From positions 62,001 through 126,000 of the forward strand of contig JAIOPN010000017.1 of assembly GCA_021413865.1 (NCBI GenBank): a stretch of DNA of 64,000 nucleotides, in the 5' to 3' direction. This document shows positions 35,598-53,647 of the stretch, one piece after another (positions within the stretch are counted from its first letter, which is position 1; each line of letters begins with the position of its first letter). The stretch is from Planctomycetota bacterium. Lineage in GTDB: Bacteria > Planctomycetota > Phycisphaerae > Phycisphaerales > Phycisphaeraceae. Made by a program: the position numbers and the translations under genes. The notes beneath the pieces were generated by a model. That model searched no databases. It was not told the DNA's origin and worked only from the letters and a program-made list of their open reading frames with translations.

Positions 35598-36833
35598 ATG
35601 ACCACCGCCACGCAACACGCGCCGACACAGACCCACCAGCCGGACATGCTCCCACCCGTGCGCGAGTGGGAGATGAGCGCCGCGTCATGGGCTGCCGACG
35701 GCTCGGAACTGACGACCCAATCCAACAAGTTCGGCATGATCGCCACCTCCCCCGCGCTCGACCTTACGCCCGGCCGGCTCTATTACTTCGACCTCTCCGT
35801 GGAGTTCATCGGCGAGGGCGGGATCACCTTCGGCCTGCAGGACGAGAACCGCTCCGCGTGGATACAAATCCTGAACATCACCGGGGCGGGCCCCAAGGTG
35901 GTCTGCCTGCGCTACACGCCCAAAACGGCGGTGCGCGTGCACCTGGCGCTGGCGAACTGCCGCCACGAGGCCGAGGCCGTCACCCGCATCCGCGACCTGC
36001 GCGTCAAGGTCTCCTCCGTGCACAAGGACGGCATGACCGCCGAGATGTGGAAGGAGGAGGCCCGCCGGCAGTGGAACGTGGACCACTGCGGCGGCGAGCG
36101 CGGCGATGGGGCGGAGAAAGGCTCGCTCGAATATTTTCTCAAGGTCGAACGCGACCGGTACGGCTCCTACGCCCCGTGGATGCCCAAGGCGATCGGCTAC
36201 GACAAATACGGCGGGAAGAAAGTGCTGGAGATCGGCGCCGGGCTGGGGACGGATTTGGCCCAGTTCGCCAAGGCCGGCGCGATCGTCACCGACTTTGATC
36301 TGGCCGAGGGCCATCTCAACATGGCCAAACGCAACTTCGAAGTGCGCGGGCTCAAGGCGGAGTTCCAACTCGGCGACGCGGAAAAAATCCCCTTCCCCGA
36401 CGCCACGTTCGACGTCGTTTACAGCTTCGGCGTCATCCACCACATCCCCGACACCCAGCTCGTCGTGGATCACATCCACCGCATCCTCAAGCCCGGCGGT
36501 GAAGCGATCATCATGGTGTACGCCAAGCACTCATTCAATTACTGGATCAAGGACGTGTACCGCCTCTGGTGGCAGCAGGGCATGCGCAAGGCGATGACGA
36601 TGGAGGAAATCCTCTCGGCCAACACCGAGTTCTCGCCCAACGGCGCCCGCCCGCTCGTGAAGGTCTATACCGCCGGCCAGTGCAGGCAGCTCTTCAGCCG
36701 CTTCTCGAAGGTGCGCGTCCGCAAGTACCAGCTCACGCCCGGCGAGTTGCCCAAGTGGATGCTCGGCCTCGCCTCCGCCGACACATGGGGCCGGCTCATG
36801 GGCTGGAACCTCATCATCAACGCCGTCAAGTAA
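35598..36833 (+). CDS. SAM-dependent methyltransferase with N-terminal beta module
   Basis: A 411-residue protein. Residues ~10-135 form the recurring beta-rich module (YFDLSVEFIGEGGITFGLQD; KTAVRVHLALANCRHEAEA). The class I methyltransferase domain follows: motif I KKVLEIGAGLGTDLAQFAKA at ~207, motif II region TDFDLAEGHLNMAKRNFE, the acidic motif DATFDVVYSFGVIHHIPD, and LKPGGEAIIMVYAKHSFNYW. An AAGGAA site precedes the ATG. It sits between the fusion gene and the radical SAM gene in the export operon, so polymer, lipid carrier or sugar nucleotide methylation is likely. Acceptor unknown. Confidence 0.9.
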   Translation: MTTATQHAPTQTHQPDMLPPVREWEMSAASWAADGSELTTQSNKFGMIATSPALDLTPGRLYYFDLSVEFIGEGGITFGLQDENRSAWIQILNITGAGPKVVCLRYTPKTAVRVHLALANCRHEAEAVTRIRDLRVKVSSVHKDGMTAEMWKEEARRQWNVDHCGGERGDGAEKGSLEYFLKVERDRYGSYAPWMPKAIGYDKYGGKKVLEIGAGLGTDLAQFAKAGAIVTDFDLAEGHLNMAKRNFEVRGLKAEFQLGDAEKIPFPDATFDVVYSFGVIHHIPDTQLVVDHIHRILKPGGEAIIMVYAKHSFNYWIKDVYRLWWQQGMRKAMTMEEILSANTEFSPNGARPLVKVYTAGQCRQLFSRFSKVRVRKYQLTPGELPKWMLGLASADTWGRLMGWNLIINAVK

Positions 36834-36860: not shown

Positions 36861-39614
36861 ATGTCCACCTCGACCGTCAACCTGACCCAGCTCCGCGTGG
36901 AGGCCCCGCCGCGGGAGCTGACGCCGCCGCCGCGCCAGTGGACGGCGCGCGGGGCGGTCTGGATCGACGAGACGTGCAATTTCCGCGCCGGGGAGCAGAT
37001 AAACTCGATCACCTCGCCGTGGTTCGACCTGCGCGATGACCGCGAATACCAGTTCGAGCTGCACCTGGCGCTGGACCGGCCCGTTGCCGTGGAGTTCGGC
37101 GTGCAGGACGTCGCCGGGCGCTGGATCGGCAAGGTCCTCATCGATGACACTGTGCGGCACGAGCACATCCTGAGCATCCGCGACCACCACGCCGACCGTT
37201 ACCGGCTCGTGCTTACGACTGTCGCTCCGCTGCCCGTTGGCCCGGACCTGTCGCTGGGCGGGGTGGACGTGATCGCCTCTTCCTCTGAGCTGACCGGCCG
37301 CGCCGCGTCGCGCGCCAACGCCGCCGACCCCAACACCTACCTCCCGCACTGGGGCTTCATCCGCCGCACCATCCACCGCGCGTGCAAACGGTCTCGCTTC
37401 GTCAACACACTGGTCAGCGCCGCCGAGTTCCGCCTGGAGCGTGAGGAGTTGATCAGCCTCCCGCAGTACATGGCCCTCTGCCCCACCGGCCAGTGCAACG
37501 CCTCCTGCGGGTTCTGCTCCGTCACCACCAACCGCACCGGCATCGTCAAACGCGAGTTGCCCTTCGACCGCCTGCACCGCTTCCTCGCCCCGGTCCGCAA
37601 CACCATCCGCATGTACGGCCTGGAGGGCAACGGCGAGCCGACCCTCTACGACCACTTCGATGACCTGATCGACATCCTCGCCGCCGGCGGCGCGACGTTC
37701 TACCTCATCACCAACGCCGAGCGGCTCACGACCGAGCAGGTGGACCGCGTGATCGCACGCGGCGTGAGCGCCGTGAACGTCTCGCTTAACGCCGCCACCG
37801 CCGCCACCCACCGCAGCGTCATGCGGCTCAAGCACTTCGACCGCGTGATCGAGAACGTCAAGCGGTTCACCACCGTGCGCTCGAAGGAGAACACTACGGT
37901 CAGCGTCTCCTACGTGGTGAACCGGCACAACATCCACGAGGTGGTCGATTTCATCCGCCTGGCCGACCGCGAACTAAACGTGGACCACATCTACGTCCGC
38001 ACCCTCTCGGAGATCGCCAACGACCAGGGCGTGGTTGAGGACCAGCGCGACCTGGTGCCGCACGAGGGCGAGGTCCGCGACATGCTCGAGCGCGTGGGCG
38101 ACTACCTCCGGCTCGAACCGGTGCGGGCGATCATGCACTTCAAGCCCGAGACGTTCCGTGCTTTCCGGAGCGACCCGGCCGGGCGGATCGTCAAGCCTCC
38201 GGGCTACGAGACGCGCCTGCTCGCGCCCCGGCCGAGTGGGTGGAGCGCGGAGCGGGAGGACGTACAAATCAAATGGTCGCTCGATTCGGTGTCGCTCTCC
38301 GCGCCGGCATCAACGATCGGGGATTCGGTATTGATCCGCTCCACACCGGTGCCCGTCGATCCCTCGATCGAGGAAACATTCTGCTGCCGCGCGGCGGTGC
38401 GCTCCGGCTTGTTGAACGTAACGATCATGGATGAAACCGGGCGCGAGATCGCCGCACGGTCCGTCGGCCCTTCGGCCATGGACCTTCCGGGGGTGATCGA
38501 GTTCGCCGTGCCGCGCGGCGTGGATTCCGTGCGAATCGTCATTGGCTGCGGCCCCGCCGGCGTCGAGGCCGACGTCGATTTCGAGCGTCTGCTCGTGCCC
38601 GGCCTCCCGATCCACGCAACGTTCCAACTGCCCGAGCCGCGCCGCTGGGAGGTCGCCAGCCCCGGCGCGGGCGTGGCGTGGACCGGCCCCAAGGTGCACC
38701 TCACCTGGGACGGCCCGGCGAGCCAGTATCTCCTCAAGAGTTTCTCGCAGCCCTGCAGGCCGAACGAACCGATCGCCCTGCCGGTGATGCTGAACGTGCG
38801 CCGAGGAAAACTCGGCATCGGCGTGCTCAGCGCGGACTTCACGCGCTGGACGCACCAGTTCGAGTTCGACGCTGGCACGCGGGCCGCCATCCTCCGCCTC
38901 GACCCGGCGGATAACGACCGTGTGCAGCTCGTGATTTACGCCACCACCGCCGACGGCCTGGATGCCGACATCGACTGGGGCGACAACATCACCGTCCCCC
39001 GCCAGTCGGGCCTCTGGACCGCTTCGGTCAAACAGCCAGCCCCGGATCTTTCACCATCCCCCTCCGCTTCCGCCGCTAGCGGCTTAGCGTCCCCTCCGAT
39101 TTCTCCCTCCGCTCCACCAACCCCGTCTCTCCACCACCGAATCGCAACCAGCCTTGGCAACCTCCTCGCCTCCCTCGCCCTGGTCTTCAATCGCAATCCC
39201 CGCGCCGCCAAGACCCGCTACTACTGCCAGAAACCCTGGACCGACCTGAGCAATTTCTCCGTCGATGGCCGGATGGACGTCTGCTGCATCGCCACCGGCG
39301 AGAGCCAGAAGCGCTACGCGCTAGGCAACATCTTCGAGCAGACGTTCCAGGAAATCTGGAACGGACCGGTCGCACGCGAATTCCGCCGCACCGTCAACCA
39401 CGCCGACAAGGCGCTGCCCCCCTGCGCCCGCTGCCCGATGGCGTACCAGTACCAGGGCCCGATGTTCGACCCGGTTTACACCCCGCAGTGGGTGCGCGGC
39501 TGGCTGGCCATGTCGAGCGAGCGCCGCTGGCTCCGCCGCCCTATCATGGCCGTCGGCATCGTGACCTACCGCCTGATCCACCCGCTGCTCTTCCGGGGAT
39601 TCAGGAAGCCATGA
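36861..39614 (+). CDS. Radical SAM/SPASM protein with three beta modules
   Basis: A 917-residue protein. Residues ~10-125 are one beta-rich module (YQFELHLALDRPVAVEFGVQ). The radical SAM core starts with the cluster motif CNASCGFC at ~213, preceded by LPQYMALCPTG and followed by MYGLEGNGEPTLYDHFDDLI. Two further beta modules lie at ~460-580 and ~590-720 (LNVRRGKLGIGVLSADFTRW). After a Ser/Pro/Ala linker (encoded by a dispersed repeat) comes a SPASM-like cysteine domain at ~785-860 (YYCQKPWTDLS; MDVCCIATGE; PPCARCPMAY). Radical chemistry on a glycan or lipid is inferred from the operon, not shown. Its stop overlaps the exporter gene by 4 bp. Confidence 0.88.
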   Translation: MSTSTVNLTQLRVEAPPRELTPPPRQWTARGAVWIDETCNFRAGEQINSITSPWFDLRDDREYQFELHLALDRPVAVEFGVQDVAGRWIGKVLIDDTVRHEHILSIRDHHADRYRLVLTTVAPLPVGPDLSLGGVDVIASSSELTGRAASRANAADPNTYLPHWGFIRRTIHRACKRSRFVNTLVSAAEFRLEREELISLPQYMALCPTGQCNASCGFCSVTTNRTGIVKRELPFDRLHRFLAPVRNTIRMYGLEGNGEPTLYDHFDDLIDILAAGGATFYLITNAERLTTEQVDRVIARGVSAVNVSLNAATAATHRSVMRLKHFDRVIENVKRFTTVRSKENTTVSVSYVVNRHNIHEVVDFIRLADRELNVDHIYVRTLSEIANDQGVVEDQRDLVPHEGEVRDMLERVGDYLRLEPVRAIMHFKPETFRAFRSDPAGRIVKPPGYETRLLAPRPSGWSAEREDVQIKWSLDSVSLSAPASTIGDSVLIRSTPVPVDPSIEETFCCRAAVRSGLLNVTIMDETGREIAARSVGPSAMDLPGVIEFAVPRGVDSVRIVIGCGPAGVEADVDFERLLVPGLPIHATFQLPEPRRWEVASPGAGVAWTGPKVHLTWDGPASQYLLKSFSQPCRPNEPIALPVMLNVRRGKLGIGVLSADFTRWTHQFEFDAGTRAAILRLDPADNDRVQLVIYATTADGLDADIDWGDNITVPRQSGLWTASVKQPAPDLSPSPSASAASGLASPPISPSAPPTPSLHHRIATSLGNLLASLALVFNRNPRAAKTRYYCQKPWTDLSNFSVDGRMDVCCIATGESQKRYALGNIFEQTFQEIWNGPVAREFRRTVNHADKALPPCARCPMAYQYQGPMFDPVYTPQWVRGWLAMSSERRWLRRPIMAVGIVTYRLIHPLLFRGFRKP
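39071..39110 (+). repeat. In-gene copy of the GCCGCTNGCGGCTTAGCG element
   Basis: GCCGCTAGCGGCTTAGCG followed by CCCCTCCGATTTCTCCCTCC lies inside the radical SAM gene. It includes the pyrimidine tail seen at intergenic copies (5873, 8412) and is translated as a low-complexity Ser/Pro/Ala linker (AASGLASPPISPSAPPTP) near residues 738-755. Confidence 0.75.
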
Positions 39615-40465
39615 GACTCGCGATCTATAAACCCTGGCGCTGGGCGCACCGCGTGCCCCTCGTCGTCGCGGCGGAGATGGATACGCTCCTGCACCGCCTC
39701 TACCGCGCCCGCCACACGCTCATCGCCGTCACCAGGGTCGAGTTTCATAAGAAATACGCCGGCTCCATCCTCGGCGCGCTCTGGTACCCGCTCTACTCCG
39801 CCATCCTGCTGGGCATCTACTGCTTCGTTTACCTCGCCATCATGTCGATGAAGATCCCCGAGATGGGCAGCTACGAGTACGTGCTCTTCATCTTCGCGGG
39901 CCTGATCCCCTTCCTGGGTTTCTCCGACGCCCTGATGTCCGGCATCACGTCGATCAAGAGCAACATCGCGCTGGTGAAGAACGCCGTCTTCCCCGTCGAG
40001 CTGATCCCGATCAAGCACATCCTCGTCTCCATGGCGGGCCTGACGATCACGCTGGCGGTGCTGATCGTGATGATCCTGCCCACCTCCATGCTCGGCGCGC
40101 ACATGCTCTACCTGCCCGTGCCGCTGCTGCTGCTCTTCCTCTTCACGCTGGCGGTGGTGTGGGTCCTCGCGGCCGTCGCGGTGCTGGTGCCGGACCTGAC
40201 CTACCTGGTGAACCTGCTGGTGCTGATGCTGATGTTCCTCTCGCCGATCGGGTTTTCCCTCGATCGCATCCCGGGCAACGCGGCCGTGGTGCTCTACTTC
40301 AACCCGATGACCTACCTGATCGAGAGCTTCCGCTACGCCCTGATCGGCCTGCGCACCACGCCCATGTGGTGGGACGCCGCGTTCGGTCTGGTGAGCATCG
40401 TCGGCGTCTCCTTCGCCGGCGCTTTCTTCCGACGCCTCATGCCGATGTTCAGCGACTATGAGTAA
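39611..40465 (+). CDS. ABC-2 type polysaccharide export permease (Wzm-like)
   Basis: A 284-residue permease with about six membrane helices. The N-terminus contains LIAVTRVEFHKKYAGSILGALWYPLY, typical of ABC-2 polysaccharide permeases, then FIFAGLIPFLGFSDALM and LVNLLVLMLMFLSPIGFSLD. It would form the membrane channel for lipid-linked polymer export across the inner membrane. ATG 39611 overlaps the radical SAM stop (ATGA), and its own end overlaps the ATPase gene by 8 bp, showing a tightly coupled export cassette. Confidence 0.92.
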   Translation: MRLAIYKPWRWAHRVPLVVAAEMDTLLHRLYRARHTLIAVTRVEFHKKYAGSILGALWYPLYSAILLGIYCFVYLAIMSMKIPEMGSYEYVLFIFAGLIPFLGFSDALMSGITSIKSNIALVKNAVFPVELIPIKHILVSMAGLTITLAVLIVMILPTSMLGAHMLYLPVPLLLLFLFTLAVVWVLAAVAVLVPDLTYLVNLLVLMLMFLSPIGFSLDRIPGNAAVVLYFNPMTYLIESFRYALIGLRTTPMWWDAAFGLVSIVGVSFAGAFFRRLMPMFSDYE

Positions 40466-42224
40466 CCCCGAACCGCTCCAACCCGACATGGCCCTGTCGC
40501 TCCGCGACATCGGCAAGGTCTACCGGCTCTACCAGAAGCCGGCCTACCGCGTGCTCGACCTGCTGGGCATGTGCCCATCCGGACCCGGGTATTTCCACGA
40601 GTTCACCGCGCTGGCGGGCGTGGACCTGGACATCCCGCGCGGGCAAAAGCTCGCCATCATCGGCCGCAACGGCGCGGGGAAATCCACCCTCCTCAAGATC
40701 ATCACCCAGACCCTCCGCCCCACCACAGGCACCATGCGCGTCAACGGCCAGGTCAGCGCGCTGCTCCAGATCGGCACCGGTTTCCACCCCGATTTCACCG
40801 GCAGGCAGAATGTTTACGCCTGCTTCGCCCACCTGGGCATCACCGGCAAGCGCGCCGACGAGCTCTTCGACGAGGTCGTCGATTTCGCCGAGTTGCACGA
40901 GTACATCGACCAGCCCGTCAAGACCTACTCCACCGGCATGGGCGCCAGGCTCATGTTTTCCGCGACCACCGTCGTGCAGCCCGACATCCTTGTCATCGAC
41001 GAGATACTGGGCGTCGGCGACGCCTACTTCGCCCACAAGAGCTACGACCGCATGCGCCGCATGTGCTCCGAGCAGGGGACGACGCTCCTGCTCGTGACGC
41101 ACGACGTTTACACCGCGCTCAACGTCTGCGACCGTTTCATCTGGATCGACAAGGGGCGGATCAAGATGGAGGGCGACGGCAAATCCACCGTCAACGCCTA
41201 CGAGGCCTCGATCAAGGAGCAGGAGGAGGAGCGCCTCCGCCGCCGCACGGCGATGAAAACCGGCGCCGCCGGCGTGACGCTGCGCGTACGGTTTTCCAGC
41301 CGGTCGGGCTTCGCGCTGCCAGCGCCGCTCTCGCTCTCGGGGCTGTCATTCACGTGCGAAGACGGCTCGGTTCATATGCTGCCGGTCGCCGAGGGCGCGC
41401 CTGGCTGGACGCTCCTGCCCGAAGGGAACGTGGGTGAGGCCGCGCCGGTCGCCGGCCGGCTCTGCCGCACGCTGAGCACGCACGGCTCGATCTACCACAA
41501 GGCCGAATGGGCCGTCTCCCTCCCCGCCGGTGCACGCGTCAAACGGCTCTCGGTGGACTACCTGTACAAGGGCGACCAACCCGTGGCGGTCGGCGTCGTC
41601 GAGGACGGCGGACGGCCGCTCATCGCCGGCGAGTTGTCGGCCTCGCCCGCCTGGTCCACCGCACCGATCGACGCCGACCAGGCCCCGCGCATCACCGACG
41701 CCACCGGCGGCGTGTACGGCAACGCGAAGATCACCATCGAATCGATCGAACTGCTCGACGCCGACGGCAACCCCTGCCGCAACATGAAGCGCGGCCAGCG
41801 CACCACCGCGCGGGTCGTGGTGCGGGTGCGGGACAAGGACGTGCCGCGCAACCCGACCTTCGTGCTGGCGGCGCACCGCGCGGGGGTGGCCTATGCGGTC
41901 CGTGTTGTGGACGACACGCTCGACCTCCCGCACGACGCGGACCTGATCGAGGTGCGCGTCGATCTGGGCGAGCTGATCCTGGGCGCGGGGACGCACTACC
42001 TCTCCGCCTCGCTCTTCGAGCCCGACTATTTCCACTCCCCCAACTCGGTCTTCTTCACGATCAACCCGCGTGTGTATTGTTCCATGGTCCGGGCGTTGGA
42101 GTTCCTGATCGAGCCCACACACCCGGTCGACCCGATGACCTTCGCCTTCCATCCGGCGACCATCAGCGTCACCCCGCTGCACAACCAAGCCCCCGCGACA
42201 CCCGAACCGGCGGCCACCGCCTGA
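40458..42224 (+). CDS. ABC polysaccharide export ATPase with extended C-terminus (Wzt-like)
   Basis: A 588-residue protein. Residues ~1-255 are the ATPase: Walker A IIGRNGAGKSTLLKII, signature YSTGMGARLMFSATT, Walker B DILVIDEILGVGDAYF. The region ~300-420 looks like another beta module (RLSVDYLYKGDQPVAVGVVE; KITIESIELLDADG), and ~430-565 matches the Wzt C-terminal carbohydrate-binding domain (TTARVVVRVRDKDVPRNPTF; LGAGTHYLSASLFEPDYFHS). In O-antigen systems with Wzt C-domains, the domain binds the modified end of the glycan to license export. At 588 residues it is much longer than a plain ATPase and than most Wzt proteins (~400-450). Confidence 0.92.
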   Translation: MSNPEPLQPDMALSLRDIGKVYRLYQKPAYRVLDLLGMCPSGPGYFHEFTALAGVDLDIPRGQKLAIIGRNGAGKSTLLKIITQTLRPTTGTMRVNGQVSALLQIGTGFHPDFTGRQNVYACFAHLGITGKRADELFDEVVDFAELHEYIDQPVKTYSTGMGARLMFSATTVVQPDILVIDEILGVGDAYFAHKSYDRMRRMCSEQGTTLLLVTHDVYTALNVCDRFIWIDKGRIKMEGDGKSTVNAYEASIKEQEEERLRRRTAMKTGAAGVTLRVRFSSRSGFALPAPLSLSGLSFTCEDGSVHMLPVAEGAPGWTLLPEGNVGEAAPVAGRLCRTLSTHGSIYHKAEWAVSLPAGARVKRLSVDYLYKGDQPVAVGVVEDGGRPLIAGELSASPAWSTAPIDADQAPRITDATGGVYGNAKITIESIELLDADGNPCRNMKRGQRTTARVVVRVRDKDVPRNPTFVLAAHRAGVAYAVRVVDDTLDLPHDADLIEVRVDLGELILGAGTHYLSASLFEPDYFHSPNSVFFTINPRVYCSMVRALEFLIEPTHPVDPMTFAFHPATISVTPLHNQAPATPEPAATA

Positions 42225-42240: not shown

Positions 42241-43203
42241 ATGCGATACCTGATCGGCGTAACACACTCCGACCGGCCGCTCGACTTCGAGCGATGCACC
42301 GTTGAGTTCTTCAACAAGCGGTTCGGCGATCCCGAGCGCCTGCATAACCCGCCGCCCTTCGAGAGCCTCGCACCCGCGAGCGCCCACTCCCCTTACCACG
42401 GCGGCGCGACCTTCTGGATACTCGACCCCGAGAAGCCCGACCGACCCACGTTCGTACGGCACCTCAACACGGGATACCGTGTCCAGCACGCCTCCACGCT
42501 CGGCGGGCGGTTCCTGCTGGGCGGGACGGAATCCGTCGAGCTTGTGTCGTTCGACGGCACGCCCCACTGGCGCGCGAGCGATCCCTGGATGGCGGGCGTG
42601 CACACCGTGTTCCACCACGCGGGCCGGATCGCCGTGTCGTGCTCCGCGTCGGATTCGCTGATCGTGCTGGATGCCGTCACAGGAGCGGTGACGCACGCGC
42701 TGCGGCTTCCGCCGGGGCGATACGGCCCGGGCTACGACCTCACCCGCGATCACGACGTACGCGAGCACTACATCGTCAACGACCACCAGATGACGCACGT
42801 GAACTGCGCCTGGCCGAGTGAGGAGGGCATCTACGTCTCAACGCTCATCCAGGGCGCTGTGGGCCTGTTCGGGTGGGACACGACCTACCGCGAGTTGTTC
42901 CGCGGCTACGTCGGGTGCCACGGCGTACGCAAGATCGGCGGCGACGCCCTGCTCCTGGCCGACAGCTGCGCCGGCATCGCCCGCGTGCTCGACACGGCGG
43001 GGAACGAACGCGAGCAACTCGACTTCGGCTGCCGCTGGCTGCACGACGCCGCACCCGTCAATGACAAGCACATCCTCGCAGCGGTCGCCGACCGCAACAG
43101 CGTGGCGGTGGCCGACCGGGAGACAGGGCGGACGATCGCCGAGTGGAGCATGGACCGGTTCGGCGTGGGTGTGCAATTCCTCTCCGTCACGCCGATGCTC
43201 TGA
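42241..43203 (+). CDS. Hypothetical protein, probable beta-propeller
   Basis: A 320-residue protein with no signal peptide. Repeating strand patterns suggest a WD40/quinoprotein-like propeller: TFVRHLNTGYRVQHASTLGG, DSLIVLDAVTGAVTHALRLP, IGGDALLLADSCAGIARVLD, NSVAVADRETGRTIAEWSMD. A His/Asp-rich stretch DLTRDHDVREHYIVNDHQMT is distinctive. No named family recognised. It follows the Wzt gene by 16 bp and ends 16 bp from the convergent coiled-coil methyltransferase gene, so it is the last gene of the export operon. A scaffold or glycan-handling role is only a guess. Confidence 0.75.
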   Translation: MRYLIGVTHSDRPLDFERCTVEFFNKRFGDPERLHNPPPFESLAPASAHSPYHGGATFWILDPEKPDRPTFVRHLNTGYRVQHASTLGGRFLLGGTESVELVSFDGTPHWRASDPWMAGVHTVFHHAGRIAVSCSASDSLIVLDAVTGAVTHALRLPPGRYGPGYDLTRDHDVREHYIVNDHQMTHVNCAWPSEEGIYVSTLIQGAVGLFGWDTTYRELFRGYVGCHGVRKIGGDALLLADSCAGIARVLDTAGNEREQLDFGCRWLHDAAPVNDKHILAAVADRNSVAVADRETGRTIAEWSMDRFGVGVQFLSVTPML

Positions 43204-43219: not shown

Positions 43220-45946
43220 TCAGACGCCCGGCGCGTTGCCCCGCATCACCAGACGGTGCACGGCGAACTCGGAAACCCCCTCGGCGTCGCGGTGGTTGGA
43301 GAGCATGATCCGGCATCGCTTGGGCGTCTTGCCGCCCGCCCACGAAAAATAATGCGTGTGCCGGCCCGCCTTCGAGACGCTGCGCGAATAAGCGAAGGCG
43401 TTTTTCTCCAGGTCCAGCACGCCCACGGAGAACGCCCCCTTGTCGAGCGTGGCGTCGAGCTCGAGCGTGACCCAGTCGAAGCCGTTCACGCTGATGTCCT
43501 GGTCGTCCGACGAGGCGGCGTAGAAATACTTGTTGCGGGTGGTGACGAACCGCGTCGAGCCATCCGGTCTGACCTCTGCCTTGGCCTCGAGCGGGGCGAG
43601 TTTCGCCGGCTTGATGTCCCAGATCACAGGCCCGCCCGCGGACTCGCGGTCGAGGTCGAAACAGGGCCCGGGATCGGCGACCGCCCCCTCGGCGTCACGC
43701 CAGCCCAGGGCGTAGGTGACGTAATAATCCTGGTTCCAGAACTGACGATTCGTGATGACCATCTCCTCGCCGGCCAGGTCCATCAGCTTGGCGTCGTCGT
43801 GCCAGTCGGACCAGGGGTTGTGCAATTCCCCCACGCTTGGGTCGGATGCCCGAGCAAAGAGCGTCGGCGAGTCCACCTGGCAGTACGCCTGCAGGAACGT
43901 CCGCGTGTAGAGCAACAGGTAGATGCGCCCCTTGGGCGCGAGCGACCGCTTGAACGCCGACATCACCGCCCGCTGCACGTCGAAGGGCATCGTCATCAGG
44001 CTGCCCCAGACGTAGATGTAGTCGTAAGGCCCGCCAAACTCGGCCGCCGCCGGGTCCGACAGCGGCAGCACGCTCAACCCCTTGAGCTTCTCGATCTTCG
44101 CCACCCGTTCGATCACGCGCAGGTTGGTCTCCACGATGTCGGCACACGTGAGCTTCGTCCCCGCGCGGAGAAACTGGATTTCGTTAACGCCCAACCCGCT
44201 GCCGAAGGAGAGCACACGCTTGCCCTTGAAGAGGCCCGCGCAATAACGGTTGAAGAACCGCTCCTCGAAATAGTGATTCACCCGGCTCTCGTACTGCTCG
44301 TTCCAGCGGGCCTTGAACTGCTTGTCGTCCAGCCGGAGTAAATCTTCCGAGCTGATCTTGCCCGTGCCCGTGGGGGCGTATGTCCAATACTTGCGGGCGG
44401 TGTCGAGGCTGTAGGCCTCACGCTCGTCCCGCTTGTGGATGTTCTCGACCCAGTCGGCGACGAGCTGGAACCGCGCGCCTAACCGTGTGTCGAACTCGGC
44501 GTGGAGCCGATCCTGAAGCTCGCGCTGGGCGGCGTCTGCGCGGTCGCCCTGTTCGCGCAACGCCTTGGCCGTGGCGGCGGCGAGGGATTCCCGCATCTCC
44601 TCCACCCGGCGCGCCGAGGCCGATCCGGCCTGCGACACCGCGTCACGCAGGGCGGCCAGCTCGGTGCGCAGCGTCTGGACGTCGGCGACGAAGGAGCGGT
44701 GACGCTCGGCGGCGTTCGCATCGATCTGGTCGGAACGGACCGCCAGCCCGCGCACCCCCGCCGTCAAATCCCGCGTCTCTTTCGCCACGTCCGTGGCCTG
44801 CGTGGCCAGATTCTCAGTCCGTACGGTCAAGCCCTGGGTTTGCGAGGTCAGGCTTTGCGTGTGCGCGGTCAGGCCCTGCGTCTGCGCCGCTAATTCCTGC
44901 GTGCGGGCGGCCTGCTCCTGCCCGCGCACGGCCAGGTCCTGCACGCGGGCGGTCAACGACTCGAACGCGGCCGAGGCCTCGCCGCGCTGCCCCAGCATCT
45001 CCGCGCCTAGTGCGTCAAGGACTCCCATCGTGCGGGTGAGCCGCTCAACGGTCTCCGCCTGCGAGCGGGCGGCCTCCATCTTGATCTGCTCAAACGCCTG
45101 CGTGCCGGAGGCGTGCCGCTGCTCCGCGGCCTCGACCGATTGCGCGATCGCGGCGCGGATGACGTCGTCTTCCCGCGTGATCTGCTCGGACAGCTCATGC
45201 AACGAGGAACGCAGCGCCGCCGCCGCGTCGGCCGTCTCCCGCGCCATCGTCTCCCGTGCCGCCGCCTGCTCGGCCCGCAGTGCCACGACCGCGGCGGAGA
45301 GCGCCGCCTGCTGGTCGGCTATCGAACGCGACGCCTCGGCCAAATCCGCCCTCGCCTGTTCCAGGCCCGACCGCACGCGCTCATCAACGGCGGCGATCGC
45401 CGCGCGGGCCTCACCCGCCAGCCTGCGGACCTGCTCGTCCTGCGCGGCCATCGCCTCGGCCGTCTTCGCCGCGCGCTCCCGCCCCTCACGGTCCAGCGCC
45501 GCCATTGCCGACAACACGCCCGCATGCCGCTCCTGGCCCGCCTTTTCCTGCGCCGCCAGCGCCGACAACACGCCCGCATGCCGCTCCTGGCCCGTCTTCT
45601 CCTGCGCCGCCATTGCCGACAACACGCCCGCCTGCCGTTCCTGCCCCGCCTTCTCCTGTGCCGTCAGCGCCGACAGGACGCCTGCGGCCTGCTCGTCACG
45701 CTTGGCTTCCTGCCGTTGGTGTGTCTCGGCGACCTCGGTGCGGAACCGGGCGACGTCCGCCGCGATCGCGTCACTGCGCTCGCCCAGCAGCGTAGCCAGC
45801 CGCCCGATCGCCTGGCTGTTCTCCCCGCGTTCCCGCTCCCGCGCGTCGCGTTCGTCGCGCAGCGCCCGCCATGTCCACGCCCAGAGCGCCGCGATCGCCG
45901 CCAGCACCGCGAGACAGAGATACAAGATGACATCCGTTTGAGTCAC
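43220..45946 (-). CDS. Membrane-anchored coiled-coil SAM methyltransferase with C-terminal beta module (WbdD-like ruler candidate)
   Basis: A 908-residue protein. An N-terminal membrane helix (VILYLCLAVLAAIAALWAWT) precedes about 450 residues of Ala/Glu/Gln-rich coiled coil. It includes four 18-residue repeats (AGVLSALAAQEKAGQERH) near residues 77-150 and heptads such as AQTQGLT/AHTQSLT/SQTQGLT. The methyltransferase follows, with motif I KRVLSFGSGLGVNEIQFLRA at ~573 and YDYIYVWGSLMTMPFDVQRA. Residues ~805-905 are the recurring beta module (WVTLELDATLDKGAFSVGVL; CRIMLSNHRDAEGVSEF). I chose GTG 45946 because the membrane helix starts there; an upstream extension is low-complexity. The layout resembles the chain-terminating ruler WbdD in reverse order. 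Confidence 0.88.
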   Translation of the reverse strand: MTQTDVILYLCLAVLAAIAALWAWTWRALRDERDARERERGENSQAIGRLATLLGERSDAIAADVARFRTEVAETHQRQEAKRDEQAAGVLSALTAQEKAGQERQAGVLSAMAAQEKTGQERHAGVLSALAAQEKAGQERHAGVLSAMAALDREGRERAAKTAEAMAAQDEQVRRLAGEARAAIAAVDERVRSGLEQARADLAEASRSIADQQAALSAAVVALRAEQAAARETMARETADAAAALRSSLHELSEQITREDDVIRAAIAQSVEAAEQRHASGTQAFEQIKMEAARSQAETVERLTRTMGVLDALGAEMLGQRGEASAAFESLTARVQDLAVRGQEQAARTQELAAQTQGLTAHTQSLTSQTQGLTVRTENLATQATDVAKETRDLTAGVRGLAVRSDQIDANAAERHRSFVADVQTLRTELAALRDAVSQAGSASARRVEEMRESLAAATAKALREQGDRADAAQRELQDRLHAEFDTRLGARFQLVADWVENIHKRDEREAYSLDTARKYWTYAPTGTGKISSEDLLRLDDKQFKARWNEQYESRVNHYFEERFFNRYCAGLFKGKRVLSFGSGLGVNEIQFLRAGTKLTCADIVETNLRVIERVAKIEKLKGLSVLPLSDPAAAEFGGPYDYIYVWGSLMTMPFDVQRAVMSAFKRSLAPKGRIYLLLYTRTFLQAYCQVDSPTLFARASDPSVGELHNPWSDWHDDAKLMDLAGEEMVITNRQFWNQDYYVTYALGWRDAEGAVADPGPCFDLDRESAGGPVIWDIKPAKLAPLEAKAEVRPDGSTRFVTTRNKYFYAASSDDQDISVNGFDWVTLELDATLDKGAFSVGVLDLEKNAFAYSRSVSKAGRHTHYFSWAGGKTPKRCRIMLSNHRDAEGVSEFAVHRLVMRGNAPGV
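45490..45720 (-). repeat. Four tandem 54-bp units inside the coiled-coil methyltransferase gene
   Basis: The start of each unit (GCCGACAACACGCCCGC on the plus strand) recurs at 45507, 45561, 45615 and, diverged, 45669, exactly 54 bp apart. Each unit encodes 18 residues of coiled coil. In-frame copy-number change would lengthen or shorten the rod without breaking the gene. Confidence 0.9.
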
Positions 45947-46085: not shown

Positions 46086-47213
46086 TTGAAAGTCTCGATC
46101 ATCTTCGGCACCCGCCCGGAAGCGATCAAGCTCGCGCCACTGATCCTCGCCATGCGGCGCGACGCCGGCTTCACCTGCCGCGTCTGCGTCACAGGCCAGC
46201 ACAGGCAGATGCTCGACCAGGTGCTGGAGGTGTTCGGCATCACGCCCGACGCCGACCTCAACCTAATGAAACCCGGCCAGACGCTCGCCGGGCTGACCTC
46301 CAGCGCCATCGCCGCGATCGACCACTACCTCGCCGCCGACAAGCCCGAGCTCGTGCTCGTGCAGGGCGATACAACCACCGTGCTCTGCTCTGCGCTGGCG
46401 GCGTTTTACCACCGCATCCCAGTGGGGCACGTCGAGGCGGGGCTGCGCACCGGCGACCTGGAGCATCCATGGCCCGAGGAGGCCAACCGCGTCCTCACCA
46501 CCCGCCTCGCCGCGTTCCACTTCGCCCCCACCGACTCCAGCCGTGACAACCTGCTGCGCGAAAAGGTCGATCCCGCGACGATCCACGTCACCGGCAACAC
46601 CGTCATCGACGCCCTCTTCCTCGCCCTGGAGCGCGCCCGCGCCACGCGGCCCGTCATCCCCGGCCTGCCCGCGCGCGTGCTCGACAACGGCCACCCCGTC
46701 GTCCTCATCACCGGCCACCGCCGTGAAAACTTCGGCGACGGCTTCGACTCCATCTGCCGCGCCGTCGCCACGCTCGCCCAACGATTCCCCGCCGTCGAGT
46801 TTGTCTATCCCGTGCACCTGAACCCCAACGTCCGCGAGCCCGTCGGCCGAATCCTCGGGGAAGCCGCCCACCGCAACGTCCACCTCATCGAGCCGCTCCC
46901 CTACCTTCCCTTCATCGCCCTGATGGACCGCTCGCGCGTGATCCTCACCGACTCGGGCGGCGTGCAGGAGGAGGCGCCGAGCCTGGGCAAACCCGTGCTC
47001 GTCATGCGCGACACCACGGAGCGCCCCGAGGCCGTCACCGCGGGAACCGTGCGACTGGTCGGAACAGATTTCAAGCGCATCGTGGATGAAACCTCGCGGC
47101 TGCTCAGCGACGAGACCGCACACACCACGATGGCCCGCTCCCACAACCCCTACGGCGACGGCAAGGCGGTCGAACGCATCATGGCGGTGCTCAGGACGTG
47201 GCGGCCCTCCTGA
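46086..47213 (+). CDS. wecB: UDP-N-acetylglucosamine 2-epimerase (non-hydrolysing)
   Basis: A 375-residue cytoplasmic enzyme converting UDP-GlcNAc to UDP-ManNAc. Family motifs: VSIIFGTRPEAIKLAPLILA at the N-terminus, VCVTGQHRQMLDQVLEVF, VQGDTTTVLCSALAAFY, GHVEAGLRTGDLEHPWPEE, and the C-terminal VILTDSGGVQEEAPSLGKP with MRDTTERPEAV. The homologous sequence begins at a TTG (46086) with GAGGGA seven bases upstream; a longer frame upstream is unrelated low-complexity sequence. It lies next to wecC and provides its substrate. Confidence 0.95.
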   Translation: MKVSIIFGTRPEAIKLAPLILAMRRDAGFTCRVCVTGQHRQMLDQVLEVFGITPDADLNLMKPGQTLAGLTSSAIAAIDHYLAADKPELVLVQGDTTTVLCSALAAFYHRIPVGHVEAGLRTGDLEHPWPEEANRVLTTRLAAFHFAPTDSSRDNLLREKVDPATIHVTGNTVIDALFLALERARATRPVIPGLPARVLDNGHPVVLITGHRRENFGDGFDSICRAVATLAQRFPAVEFVYPVHLNPNVREPVGRILGEAAHRNVHLIEPLPYLPFIALMDRSRVILTDSGGVQEEAPSLGKPVLVMRDTTERPEAVTAGTVRLVGTDFKRIVDETSRLLSDETAHTTMARSHNPYGDGKAVERIMAVLRTWRPS

Positions 47214-48781: not shown

Positions 48782-51487
48782 CTACCGCAACGATTCCTCG
48801 ATCTTCAACGCCAGAGCCGTCGTCTCCAGAATCTCCTCGACCGAGATCGGCGACGGCTTGCCGTCCGCGATAGCGCGGCCAAATTGCAGCAATTCCTCCG
48901 CGTGCCCCTTGTCCACCGCCCCTTCCCAGAGCGGTGCGCCGTCGCCAGCCTTGATGAGGCGGACGTAGTCGTCCATGACGTACGCCTGGCCGTCGCAGAA
49001 AACCTCCAGGCGTTCCTTGGGCAGCCCCTCACGCGGACCCAGCGCGGTGTAGGTGAGCGTCGCAACCGAGCCGTCGGCATAACGCAGCGTGACAATAAAA
49101 TTGTCGTTCGCGAGCCGGTCGGCGGGGCGATGCCCCAGCGGCTGCGCGTGGACGTGCTCCACCGGCGCACCGGCCAGTCCGCGGAAGACGTCGTACATGT
49201 GGCACGCCTCACCGATGTTCCGCCCCCCGCCGTGCTCCCCCTGCAGCCAGCTATCGAGCGGCACATACCCCGCGTTCATGCGGTAATTCATCATGAGCGG
49301 CCCGCGCCGCCCCGCCAGCGCCGCCCGCAGCCGCGCCACCGCCGGGCTGAACCGGCGGTTGAAGCCCACAAGCAGGCTCGGCGGTTTGGCGATCTTTTCG
49401 TAACCTTCAACAAACCCGTGCAACTGCTCCCACGTGATGCCCAGCGGCTTTTCGACGAAGACGTGCTTCCCCGCCGCCAGCCCCGCCAGCGCCTGCCCGG
49501 TGTGCTCGTGGTGCCGCGTGGCGATGACGAGCATGTGAACCTTGGGGTCTTCGAGGAACGGCGTGAGCTCCGAGGCGATGCGCGAGACGCCCAGCGACCG
49601 CGCGAAGTTCGATCCTTGTGTGCCGTGGCGCGAGACGACACCATAAAACTGAAAAAGGTCCGCGTGCGCGAGCATTTTCGGCACAAGCATGCTCTGACCG
49701 AATGCGCCCGCGCCGACGAGGACGAAGTTGATCGGCCCGTCGCGCACCGGGATGCCGCCGACCAATTCCGCCGACCGCGAGGACGACCCACGCACGTCGA
49801 TCGCCTGCGTCGCCTCCTCGGGGTAATGCAGCAGCACCGCCAGCGGCTTGCGGCCCGCACCGAGCAGTTTCTCGTAGGCCGACGGCGCGTCGTCGATGGT
49901 GAACTCCGCCTCGACGAGGGAGAGGAAATCAACCTTCCCCGCCGCGATCAGTTCGAGGTAGCTCTCCATGTTCCGCTTGGAGGTCCAACGGGCGTAGGCG
50001 AGCGGGTAATCACGGCCCTCTTCCTCATATGCCGGGTCGTACCGGCCCGGGCCGTAGGAGGTCGCCATGCGGAGGTCGATCTCCTTGCGGTAGAAATCCC
50101 GGCGCTCGGGGTGGATGTCCACGTCGCCGCTGATCACGACGCGTCCTCGCCGCCGGGCGAGCTTCATCGCGAGATTGATCGGGGCATCAGATTTCGTTGC
50201 GGCGGTGATGATGACCGCGTCCGCGCCGTGCCCGTCGGTCAGGCGGCGAACGAGAGCATGCACGGCATCGTCCGTGGCGGCGCCCTCGTCGATCGCCCGG
50301 CCGATCGCCGCCTGCACACGGTCGGCCGCCAGATCAAACCCGATCACCCGGCAGCCCGCGGCCTTGCACAATTGACCCGTGATCTGCCCGATCAGCCCCA
50401 TCCCAATCACGACCACGCGTTCGCCCAGCGCGAGCTCCGCGCGGCGTACGCCCTGCATCGCGATCGCGCCGACCGTCGCCGACGCCCCGGCGCGGAAATC
50501 GACGCCGTCGGGCAGCTTCGCCGCCAGGTTCACGGGCACGCAGGCGAACTCGCCGTGGCTCGCCCCCTCGCCGGCGCAGGCCACACGGTCCCCCACCGCG
50601 AATTCCTTGACCCCTGCACCGATCGCGACCACCTCGCCGGCGCAGGAATACCCCAGCGACCAGCCCTGGTGCGACATCTCGTTGACCGGCAGCCCCTCGG
50701 CGGGGACCAGCCCGGGCATCGCCGCGCCGGGCTTGCCCGAGAGGTAGCGGTACCACTCGCGCAGCCATTTTTCGGTGCGGGAATCTTTTTCTCCGGCCCA
50801 CTTCTGGATGAGCTGCTTGACCGTGCCTTTGAGGCCGCGTGCGCCATCGTCATCTGTCCCGTCGGCAGGAGGCTCGGGGAGGGCGTCGCGCGTGGCGACC
50901 CAGGAGACGTGCGTGGCGTCCAAGGCCTCGAAGCGTGAAGGTTGCGTCACGCCGGGCCGGTTGTTGCTGATGACGATCCGGGCCTTGATGTCGCCGCCGG
51001 GGGGCACGTCGATGTAGAGGCTGAAGGCCAGCTCGGGCATGGGGTACGGGAAGCTCTGCATGGCGAGCCACGCGGAGCCGTCCGCCGCGAGCAGACCGCA
51101 GCTTACGTTGCCCTCGTGCAGCCGCGCCCGCACGGTGATGACGTGCCGGCTATCGCCGCTGAGCGTGATCACCGGCGACCCGACCGCGTACGCATACGAC
51201 GCCTCGCCGCTGCGGATCACGCGGCGTCCGCCGGTTTCGTCGATCGTGGAGCCGGTTTCTAGCGGCCATTGGGATGTCGCGGGGAGCGCGTTGGGCCGCA
51301 TCGCGTAGAGCGTGCTGGGCTTTTTTTCGCCGGACGGTCCGGCGGTGCCCGGCGTCATCGAGGCGGTCTCGGTGCCTGTGCTGATGAGCGAGTAGCGCAC
51401 GCGCACGAGCACCTCGCGCGGCCCAACCGAGGGCACGGGCATCCGCGCCACCAGGACGCCATCGCTCTTGCCCAACAGTTTTTTCAT
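48782..51487 (-). CDS. Bidomain oxidoreductase (ADH + Gfo/Idh) with an inserted beta module
   Basis: A 901-residue paralogue of the 21268 gene. The dehydrogenase starts VLVARMPVPSVGPREVLVRV and YSLISTGTETASMTPG, but at ~65-205 it is interrupted by the recurring beta-rich module (HVITVRARLHEGNVSCGLLA; KARIVISNNRPGVTQPSRF). The dehydrogenase then resumes (LGYSCAGEVVAIGAGVKEFA; VVVIGMGLIGQITGQLCKAA). The Gfo/Idh domain begins ~575 (INFVLVGAGAFGQSMLVPKM; HVFVEKPLGITWEQLHG). I chose ATG 51487; an upstream open frame is unrelated. It converges on wecC and diverges from the second AsnB gene. Reaction unknown. Confidence 0.92.
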   Translation of the reverse strand: MKKLLGKSDGVLVARMPVPSVGPREVLVRVRYSLISTGTETASMTPGTAGPSGEKKPSTLYAMRPNALPATSQWPLETGSTIDETGGRRVIRSGEASYAYAVGSPVITLSGDSRHVITVRARLHEGNVSCGLLAADGSAWLAMQSFPYPMPELAFSLYIDVPPGGDIKARIVISNNRPGVTQPSRFEALDATHVSWVATRDALPEPPADGTDDDGARGLKGTVKQLIQKWAGEKDSRTEKWLREWYRYLSGKPGAAMPGLVPAEGLPVNEMSHQGWSLGYSCAGEVVAIGAGVKEFAVGDRVACAGEGASHGEFACVPVNLAAKLPDGVDFRAGASATVGAIAMQGVRRAELALGERVVVIGMGLIGQITGQLCKAAGCRVIGFDLAADRVQAAIGRAIDEGAATDDAVHALVRRLTDGHGADAVIITAATKSDAPINLAMKLARRRGRVVISGDVDIHPERRDFYRKEIDLRMATSYGPGRYDPAYEEEGRDYPLAYARWTSKRNMESYLELIAAGKVDFLSLVEAEFTIDDAPSAYEKLLGAGRKPLAVLLHYPEEATQAIDVRGSSSRSAELVGGIPVRDGPINFVLVGAGAFGQSMLVPKMLAHADLFQFYGVVSRHGTQGSNFARSLGVSRIASELTPFLEDPKVHMLVIATRHHEHTGQALAGLAAGKHVFVEKPLGITWEQLHGFVEGYEKIAKPPSLLVGFNRRFSPAVARLRAALAGRRGPLMMNYRMNAGYVPLDSWLQGEHGGGRNIGEACHMYDVFRGLAGAPVEHVHAQPLGHRPADRLANDNFIVTLRYADGSVATLTYTALGPREGLPKERLEVFCDGQAYVMDDYVRLIKAGDGAPLWEGAVDKGHAEELLQFGRAIADGKPSPISVEEILETTALALKIEESLR

Positions 51488-51640
51488 GTTGCCCACGACT
51501 CCGGGCCTCGCCCGCACGGGAAGGACCGGCAAATTACAGCACCCCCGCCGCCGTCGCAACCGGTGCGCATTGACGCCCCCGCGCACCGCCCTATCATCCG
51601 CTCTTCTCCGTCCCCGCCGGCCCACCACGAGAACCCCTGC
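51488..51640. promoter_or_regulatory. Divergent region between bidomain oxidoreductase and second AsnB
   Basis: A 153-bp gap between genes transcribed away from each other. No clear promoter boxes could be picked out. An open frame through it upstream of the AsnB start encodes low-complexity sequence and is not taken as coding. Confidence 0.4.
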
Positions 51641-53647
51641 ATGTGCGGCATCGTCGGCATCCTCAAGGCGCGGCCCTCCAACAACATCGAGTCGGAGAAG
51701 AAGACCCTCGTCGCCATGCGCGACCGCATGGTCCACCGCGGGCCGGACGACGCGGGCATCTGGACCGACGGCCGGTGCATACTGGGCCACCGCAGGCTCT
51801 CCATCATCGACCTCTCCCCCGCCGGCCACCAGCCCATGGGCAACGAGGACGGCTCGGTGCAGATCGTCTTCAACGGCGAGGTCTACAACCACGCCGAGGT
51901 CCGCCCCGAGCTCGAGTCACGCGGCCACAAATACAAATCCCACTCCGACACCGAGACCATCATCCACGGTTACGAGCAGTGGGGCCTCAAAACCTTCGAG
52001 AAGTTCAACGGCATGTGGGGCGTCGCGATCTACGACAACCGCGACCGTGACAAACCTCAGCTCCATCTGGTCCGCGACCGCATCGGTATTAAGCCGATCT
52101 ACATCACCCGCACCCCGGCGGGCGACTGGCTCTTCGCCTCCGAGATCAAGGCGTTGCTCGCCCACCCGGACGTGAAGGCGGAGACCGACCTGACCGCGCT
52201 GTGGCATTACCTCACGTTCATCGTCGCCCCCGCCCCGCTCACGCTCTTCCGCAACATCTTCAAGGTCCCCGCAGGTTGGAGCGTCACGATCGACCACAAC
52301 GGCCGGGCCCGCGCGTCGCAGTGGTGGGACTGTAAGCCCGACGCCTCCGAGATGTTCGACCCCGCGGAGGTGAGCGAGGACAAGTGCGCGGAGATGCTCC
52401 TGGACACGCTGCGCAAGTCGATCAAGCGGCGGATGGTGTCGGACGTGCCGTTCGGCGTGCTGCTCTCGGGCGGCATCGATTCATCGATGAACGTCGCCCT
52501 GATGAGCGAACTGATGGACCGGCCGGTGACGACATTCTCGATCGGCTACGAGGGGCACGAGAGCTACAACGAGTTCCAGTTCGCCCGCCGCATCGCCAAA
52601 CGGTACAAGACAGACCACCACGAGGTGCTGATCAACCGCGAGCAGATGCAGGCGTTCCTGCCCACGCTGATGGAGGTGCAGGACGAGCCGATCGCGGACA
52701 ACGTCTGCATCCCGCTTTATTTCCTCTCCAAGCTCGTGCGCGACTCGGGCACCACCGTCGTGCAGGTCGGCGAGGGGGCGGACGAAAACTGGCTCGGTTA
52801 CTGGTGGTGCGAACACTTCCGGCAGAAATACCAGGACGTGTACCAACCCAACTTCCAAGCGCCGGTCAAACCATCGTGGCTTGGCCGTTTCTTCGGCAAC
52901 AAAGCCCAGCAGACCGTCGCCGCGCTCCCGCTGCCGGGAAACCTCTCGGAAGAGGACCGCGACACCGTCGAACGCGCCCGCGCCGGGCAGGAGATGTTCT
53001 GGTGCGGCGCCGCCTGCTGGTGGGGCTCACGCCGCAAACGCCTCACACCCGATTCAGCTCCGTTCCAGCAGACGATCGACTGCCCCATCGAGGGGTTGCT
53101 CGACGACTCGCACCGCACGCTCGACAGCCACGACATCGTGCGGCACTACCTCGGCCCGCTGGACGGCCGGGTGCCCGAGCCCTCCGTGCTCTACAAGATT
53201 CCCTACATGGAGCACAAGCTCCGCCTCGCCGAGCACCTGCTCATGCGCGTGGACAAGTGCACGATGGCCCACTCCATCGAGGCGCGCGTGCCGTTCCTGG
53301 ATTACGAGATGGTCGATCTCGCCCGCCGCGTCCCCGCCGCCTACAAGCTCAAGGGCGGCATCGGCAAACACCTGCTCAAGAAAGTCGCCGCGCCATTCCT
53401 CGACGAGGACATGATCTACCGCAAGAAGCAGGGCTTCGGCGCGCCGATGGACGAGTGGTTCAAGGAGCCCGAGTTCGGCCGCCGCGCCCAGGACGACTTC
53501 GAGAACTCCTTCCTCGTCAAGCAGGGCCTCGTTGACCGCGACTACGTCCGCGAGATGTTCCAGTCCCAGATGGCCTCGGGCGGCTGGTCGTTCCACCTCT
53601 GGACGCTCATGAACGCGGTGTACTGGCACGACCGCTGGGTGGGGTGA
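51641..53647 (+). CDS. asnB: Asparagine synthase (glutamine-hydrolysing) family amidotransferase, second copy
   Basis: A 668-residue AsnB-type enzyme. The glutaminase starts with the nucleophile Cys (MCGIVGILKARPSNN), then MVHRGPDDAGIW and VQIVFNGEVYNHAEVRPELE. The synthase half has LLSGGIDSSMNVALM, TTVVQVGEGADENWLGYWW and SIEARVPFLDYEMVDL. ATG 51641 is fixed by the need for Cys at position 2. It shares the first enzyme's architecture but differs in the region near residues 380-450. Amidation of ManNAcA or another uronic acid is a reasonable inference. AsnB-like proteins are also part of some exosortase-linked exopolysaccharide loci, and a PEP-CTERM gene follows. Confidence 0.93.
   Translation: MCGIVGILKARPSNNIESEKKTLVAMRDRMVHRGPDDAGIWTDGRCILGHRRLSIIDLSPAGHQPMGNEDGSVQIVFNGEVYNHAEVRPELESRGHKYKSHSDTETIIHGYEQWGLKTFEKFNGMWGVAIYDNRDRDKPQLHLVRDRIGIKPIYITRTPAGDWLFASEIKALLAHPDVKAETDLTALWHYLTFIVAPAPLTLFRNIFKVPAGWSVTIDHNGRARASQWWDCKPDASEMFDPAEVSEDKCAEMLLDTLRKSIKRRMVSDVPFGVLLSGGIDSSMNVALMSELMDRPVTTFSIGYEGHESYNEFQFARRIAKRYKTDHHEVLINREQMQAFLPTLMEVQDEPIADNVCIPLYFLSKLVRDSGTTVVQVGEGADENWLGYWWCEHFRQKYQDVYQPNFQAPVKPSWLGRFFGNKAQQTVAALPLPGNLSEEDRDTVERARAGQEMFWCGAACWWGSRRKRLTPDSAPFQQTIDCPIEGLLDDSHRTLDSHDIVRHYLGPLDGRVPEPSVLYKIPYMEHKLRLAEHLLMRVDKCTMAHSIEARVPFLDYEMVDLARRVPAAYKLKGGIGKHLLKKVAAPFLDEDMIYRKKQGFGAPMDEWFKEPEFGRRAQDDFENSFLVKQGLVDRDYVREMFQSQMASGGWSFHLWTLMNAVYWHDRWVG

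Follow-up and report, generated by a model that had tools for sequence, protein, structure and literature searches.

A membrane-anchored methyltransferase with a long coiled-coil-like rod beside a planctomycete ABC exporter: a possible inverted, kinase-less counterpart of WbdD

In a window of 64,000 nucleotides from a Planctomycetota bacterium (contig JAIOPN010000017.1, positions 62,001 to 126,000), the gene at 43220..45946 on the minus strand encodes a protein of 908 residues (the target) that combines, from the N terminus, a membrane helix, a long rod, a methyltransferase (MT) and a module resembling carbohydrate-binding modules (CBMs), and lies beside a Wzm/Wzt-type ABC exporter. This anatomy is established, as are the reading frame, the periodicity of the rod, the fold matches and the gene neighborhood. 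The target may be a membrane-tethered, inverted and kinase-less terminator and ruler of the WbdD type, and we give this full ruler-and-cap account a little less than an even chance of being correct. A text search of a paper collection found no paper joining Planctomycetes, O-antigen, lipopolysaccharide, ABC transporter and Wzt.

The gene starts with GTG at 45944-45946 and ends with a stop codon at 43220-43222. Its GC3 of 88% resembles that of the neighboring genes, and per codon the rod scores +0.22 in this frame and about -0.5 in shifted ones. The stretch that continues this frame 5' of the GTG scores -0.09 per codon and looks noncoding. These codon statistics support both the frame and the GTG start, and the coordinates and coding frame given in the original prediction were right. 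Scans for promoter and terminator consensus sequences gave no matches, and no close relatives of the target were found in viral or genome contigs (by a single-protein search) or in plasmids.

Only one strong membrane segment is seen in the target, with a hydropathy peak of 2.45 near residues 6-24, and the membrane helix was assigned to residues 6-27 (45866..45931, minus strand). No Lys or Arg precedes this helix; six Arg cluster at its end and in the residues that follow. Since a positively charged flank marks the cytoplasmic side of a membrane protein (the positive-inside rule) and Arg is found only behind the helix, the bulk of the target, including the rod, is probably cytoplasmic. SAM is available in this compartment.

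The rod covers residues 29-490 (44477..45862, minus strand), and none of its 462 residues is a proline. Leu, Ile, Val, Met and Phe recur in it with a period of 3.62 residues and a power of 25.7; 2000 shuffles reached 11.7 at most. Tandem units of two sizes lie within the rod: 18-residue (54 bp) units at residues ~89-178 (45413..45682, minus strand), with 86% matches, of which four are close and a fifth is weaker, and seven-residue units at residues 331-414 (44705..44956, minus strand), where position 1 is Leu, Val or Ile in 11 of the 12 units. Beyond the 18-residue repeats, residues 161-490 keep the 3.6-residue signal with a power of 18.5. AlphaFold2 models residues 3-509 as nearly all helix, with low-confidence gaps at about residues 110-135, 278-299 and 430-451, and the continuity of the modeled rod is uncertain at these three breaks. 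The 18-residue repeats contain Gly, and a regular rod may be absent there. The rod therefore behaves like the coiled coil originally proposed in its helix, its 3.62-residue periodicity and its freedom from proline; the three breaks count against it.

Assuming one unbroken helix, the rod would have a maximum length of ~69 nm (462 x 0.1485 nm). The same arithmetic gives ~21 nm for residues 460-600 of E. coli HS WbdD, which agrees with the published coiled-coil length of ~200 A (PMC5082667). We infer from the repeats of the target that its arrays may serve as an adjustable length scale. Eighteen residues make up five helical turns and seven residues come close to two, so that inserting units of either size could leave the register nearly intact.

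The MT domain spans residues ~513-750 (43697..44410, minus strand). It matches PF13489 in Pfam (E 1.3e-8), its model resembles many MTs in Foldseek (E around 1e-8), and the class I MT core is confident in AlphaFold2. With this fold, a glycine-rich SAM motif (GxGxG) and the strand-2 acid (D603), the domain belongs to the class I SAM-dependent MTs, in keeping with the SAM methyltransferase originally noted. Of the 72 columns conserved among its relatives the target deviates at 33, with D580S, D588N and an Arg-Trp pair at 684-685 among them. Because nearly half of the conserved columns are changed and the motif-I acid is among them, replaced by S580, the MT is perhaps inactive, and its catalysis may have been altered or lost. 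If it has been lost, the target would be a pseudo-enzyme scaffold in which the MT fold and the CBM-like module act as a passive sensor of the glycan end or as an assembly platform. We find this improbable given that GxGxG and D603 are kept in a confidently modeled class I core and that a motif-I acid is not strictly invariant among class I MTs.

When the PDB is searched with a profile of the MT family, the top sequence match is a D-glucose O-methyltransferase (E 3.4e-7). The alignment of this profile with the WbdD MT (hhalign, 16% identity, E 1.8e-9) is read as kinship at the superfamily level only, with the target MT in a different, divergent subfamily. The nearest relatives found share ~30% identity and have no rod, a feature absent from every other recovered member of the family; long open frames with MT matches (in G856, G892, G720 and others) likewise proved to have no rod after inspection. 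One relative of the MT, in a Desulfobacterales contig, is found in the gene order Wzm-Wzt-radical SAM-MT.

The C-terminal beta-sandwich, at residues ~774-905 (43232..43627, minus strand), has no match in Pfam. Its AlphaFold2 model, built with two distant rows, has a mean pLDDT of 63.8 and a pTM of 0.64, and the best fold match in the PDB is CBM29 (E 8e-5, 14% identity), with further matches to CBM4, CBM6 and CBM86 at a TM of about 0.5-0.6. The model thus has the beta-sandwich fold of CBMs, in line with the C-terminal beta module first noticed in the sequence, and carbohydrate binding is predicted from it. Neither this module nor the C-terminal region of Wzt gave a match in the relatives searched. 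Proteins in which an MT of the target's family precedes a similar beta module are encoded in Falsiroseomonas bella (L052) and Reyranella (L058); they differ from the target in that no rod is seen, the L058 protein being truncated by the contig start.

Beta-rich modules seem to be a recurring feature of the enzymes in the target locus. The N-terminal beta modules of two plus-strand proteins of the exporter operon, an MT of 411 residues (35598..36833) and a radical SAM/SPASM protein of 917 residues (36861..39614), are probably related, as judged from an hhalign probability of 69.5%. Elsewhere in the window, the proteins at 19106-21079 (minus strand) and 30467-31810 (plus strand) are homologous over their C-terminal ~115 residues (hhalign 98.5%, 33% identity) and differ outside this common module. 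Iterated profiles joined only two pairs of beta modules in the locus and failed to unite them all in a single family.

The 411-residue MT and the radical SAM protein are the first of a series of tightly packed plus-strand genes that continues with a Wzm-type ABC-2 permease (39611..40465), a Wzt-type ATPase of 588 residues (40458..42224) and a beta-propeller-like protein with a weak PQQ_2 match (42241..43203). The adjoining ABC exporter that had been proposed is therefore present, with the beta-propeller-like gene as the one gene between wzt and the target. A Wzt_C-like domain is encoded at 41715-42035 (plus strand), preceded by ~150 extra residues, and its score (E 2.2e-6, 28.2 bits) falls a little short of the Pfam cut-off of 30.4. 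An hhalign comparison of the Wzt C-terminal region with that of E. coli O9 found nothing, and a search of the PDB with the region gave no match. Two further observations concern the surrounding polysaccharide locus. At 32023-35580 (plus strand), heparinase II/III domains and a GT4 glycosyltransferase are encoded together in a single open reading frame of 1185 residues, and two asparagine-synthase-like genes, possibly for the amidation of uronic acids, flank the exporter at 23456-25354 and 51269-53647 (plus strand).

The target gene lies outside the exporter operon; it is convergent with the beta-propeller-like gene and divergent from a gene for a WecB-like UDP-GlcNAc 2-epimerase (46086..47213, plus strand). 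Its position on the opposite strand, with an upstream region of its own, and the failure to find an orthologue for a linkage test in the relatives searched would suit a membrane-anchored coiled-coil MT with some other substrate that came to lie here by chance. We think a gene unrelated to the exporter unlikely, since 16 bp separate the target from the final gene of the exporter operon, the polysaccharide locus extends on both sides and the protein itself carries a CBM-like module. The convergent arrangement also has precedents near wzt in other planctomycete loci (L119, L120 and L158). From the orientation, which it gave correctly, the original prediction went on to suggest a separately controlled dosage, for which the opposite strand argues only weakly because these precedents make up 3 of the 15 planctomycete MT-rod genes described below.

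PF14524 is present in 129 of 392 planctomycete genomes. We examined 100 stretches around Wzt_C matches, 3 of them from the target's own genome and 8 under 12 kb, with a simple rod scan that is thresholded and misses weaker rods. The scan returned 26 open reading frames, in which MTs were called by domain scans or, for six frames of one family, by motif pattern only. MT-rod proteins near wzt were found in 15 of the 100 stretches, and 12 of the 15 genes lie on the same strand as wzt (coordinates read by hand). The MT comes first and the rod last, as in WbdD, in 14 of them (L117-L121, L123, L124, L153, L157-L159, L163, L164 and L168), cases that are not independent since 13 belong to a single family, f57. 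A control scan of ~0.9 Mb of other loci picked up only the target, E. coli WbdD, an HlyD adaptor and a Roseomonas plasmid MT; in planctomycetes, MT-rod fusions concentrate near wzt. One such protein, encoded beside wzt at L118:10590-13961 (plus strand), has a rod of ~770 residues that exceeds the target's. No second copy of the full target layout was seen among the 100 stretches, and the three further Wzt_C loci of the target's own genome (L111, L112 and L113) have no rod protein in the 20 kb covered.

Directly after a strong Wzt_C gene in another planctomycete (G706:C26), the gene at L154:10174-13023 (plus strand) encodes a DUF4214-like segment, a coiled coil of ~48-residue repeats and a C-terminal MT. 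This is a second reversed layout, with the rod before the MT, and it makes the reversed order less odd. Relatives of the L154 MT are found on alphaproteobacterial plasmids (L211-L214), where their neighbors include glycosyltransferases and genes for type I secretion or DUF4214 proteins. The order of coiled coil, then MT, is thus not confined to ABC export, which weakens any inference from architecture alone.

These comparisons bear on a reading in which the target is a tethered glycan MT and its rod no ruler, serving only to oligomerize the enzyme or to recruit it to the assembly complex. The glycan would then be decorated along its length or randomly, and the terminator would be the 411-residue module-plus-MT protein, or there would be none. 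This reading draws on the gene for another MT carrying a beta module, which lies a short way upstream of the exporter genes, on the fact that rod-less proteins are the rule in the target's MT family and on the three other exporters of the genome, which have no rod nearby. It does not account for a rod that costs 1.4 kb, a length unneeded for tethering, nor for the clustering of planctomycete MT-rod fusions near wzt, and we regard it as possible, at well below an even chance.

In the ruler-and-cap account, the N-terminal helix would fix the target in the inner membrane with the remainder in the cytosol, and parallel chains would form a coiled coil that places the MT and the CBM-like module as far as ~69 nm from the membrane. 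Lipid-linked polysaccharide would be polymerized at the membrane, and only chains that reach the distal domains would be bound by the CBM-like module and receive a methyl group at their non-reducing end, upon which growth would stop. The Wzt_C-type domain would then admit the capped chain for export. The topology, the oligomer, the glycan substrate, the capping and the ruler action are what we infer here. The account is supported by the CBM-like module, the D-glucose O-methyltransferase match and the Wzt_C-like domain, and beyond the window by the Desulfobacterales gene order, the 15 MT-rod loci and L154. It is weakened by the divergence of the MT, by a Wzt_C score below the cut-off, by the location of the target outside the exporter operon, by the second operon MT with its beta module, by the exporters without a rod in the same genome, by the breaks and Gly-containing repeats of the rod and by the rod-MT order of the plasmid and type I secretion setting of L154's relatives.

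More broadly, the target might represent an inverted class of glycan rulers with an N-terminal helix as anchor, a C-terminal terminator with its own CBM and a rod adjustable by duplication of 18- and 7-residue units, although we consider the existence of such a class doubtful. If it were real, a polysaccharide could be measured by rod and cap whichever end of the protein is anchored, and the tandem units would offer a natural test of stepwise glycan length against rod length. The planctomycete MT-rod genes, whose rods are of very different length, would form a comparative set for such a test.

The target shares its anatomy with capped-glycan ABC export of the WbdD/WbbB type, namely a coiled-coil protein with a terminator-type enzyme beside Wzm/Wzt. 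Among the hallmarks of such export, the enzyme on a rod is clear and the carbohydrate-binding domain of Wzt is weak, and the target is not WbdD proper. In systems of this type export also requires a modified chain terminus, and chain length follows the rod, both of which would hold for the target in the ruler-and-cap account. As in WbdD of E. coli O9/O9a and O8, a coiled coil would space a class I MT from the membrane, and the gene adjoins Wzm/Wzt, with a Wzt_C domain in the Wzt beside WbdD and a weakly scoring candidate in the one beside the target. The O8 form of WbdD is without a kinase (PMC3482155), and so is the target, in which a Pfam scan found none while the same search shows APH/Pkinase in E. 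coli HS WbdD. WbdD proper has its MT at the N terminus, followed by the rod and a C-terminal membrane-associated region, whereas the target has this order reversed, with an N-terminal membrane helix and a C-terminal MT. The anchor of the target is a true hydrophobic helix and that of WbdD an amphipathic region, the rod has 462 residues compared to ~140, and the CBM-like module is an addition. The coiled coil of WbdD proper is a parallel trimer, and what is seen of it in the target is the helix and its periodicity. The domain layout and the Pfam scan thus agree with the reversed order and missing kinase of the original prediction, and with the coiled-coil-like rod and the Wzt_C-type exporter they make the likeness to WbdD sound as a design comparison.

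In the K. pneumoniae O7 terminator (ORF6), too, a single protein combines an MT with a coiled coil and a further domain interpreted as a CBM (PMC11231755); unlike the target, it has an N-terminal terminator, a kinase and C-terminal polymerase modules. Closer in phylum, the planctomycete MT-rod proteins share with the target a long rod and an MT near a Wzt_C exporter, but 14 of them have the MT first, the rod last and no membrane helix called. The L154 protein has a DUF4214-like segment and a basic amphipathic stretch in place of the membrane helix, no C-terminal beta module and an MT of another subfamily, yet, like the target, it has a coiled coil rich in repeats ahead of a C-terminal MT, close to wzt.
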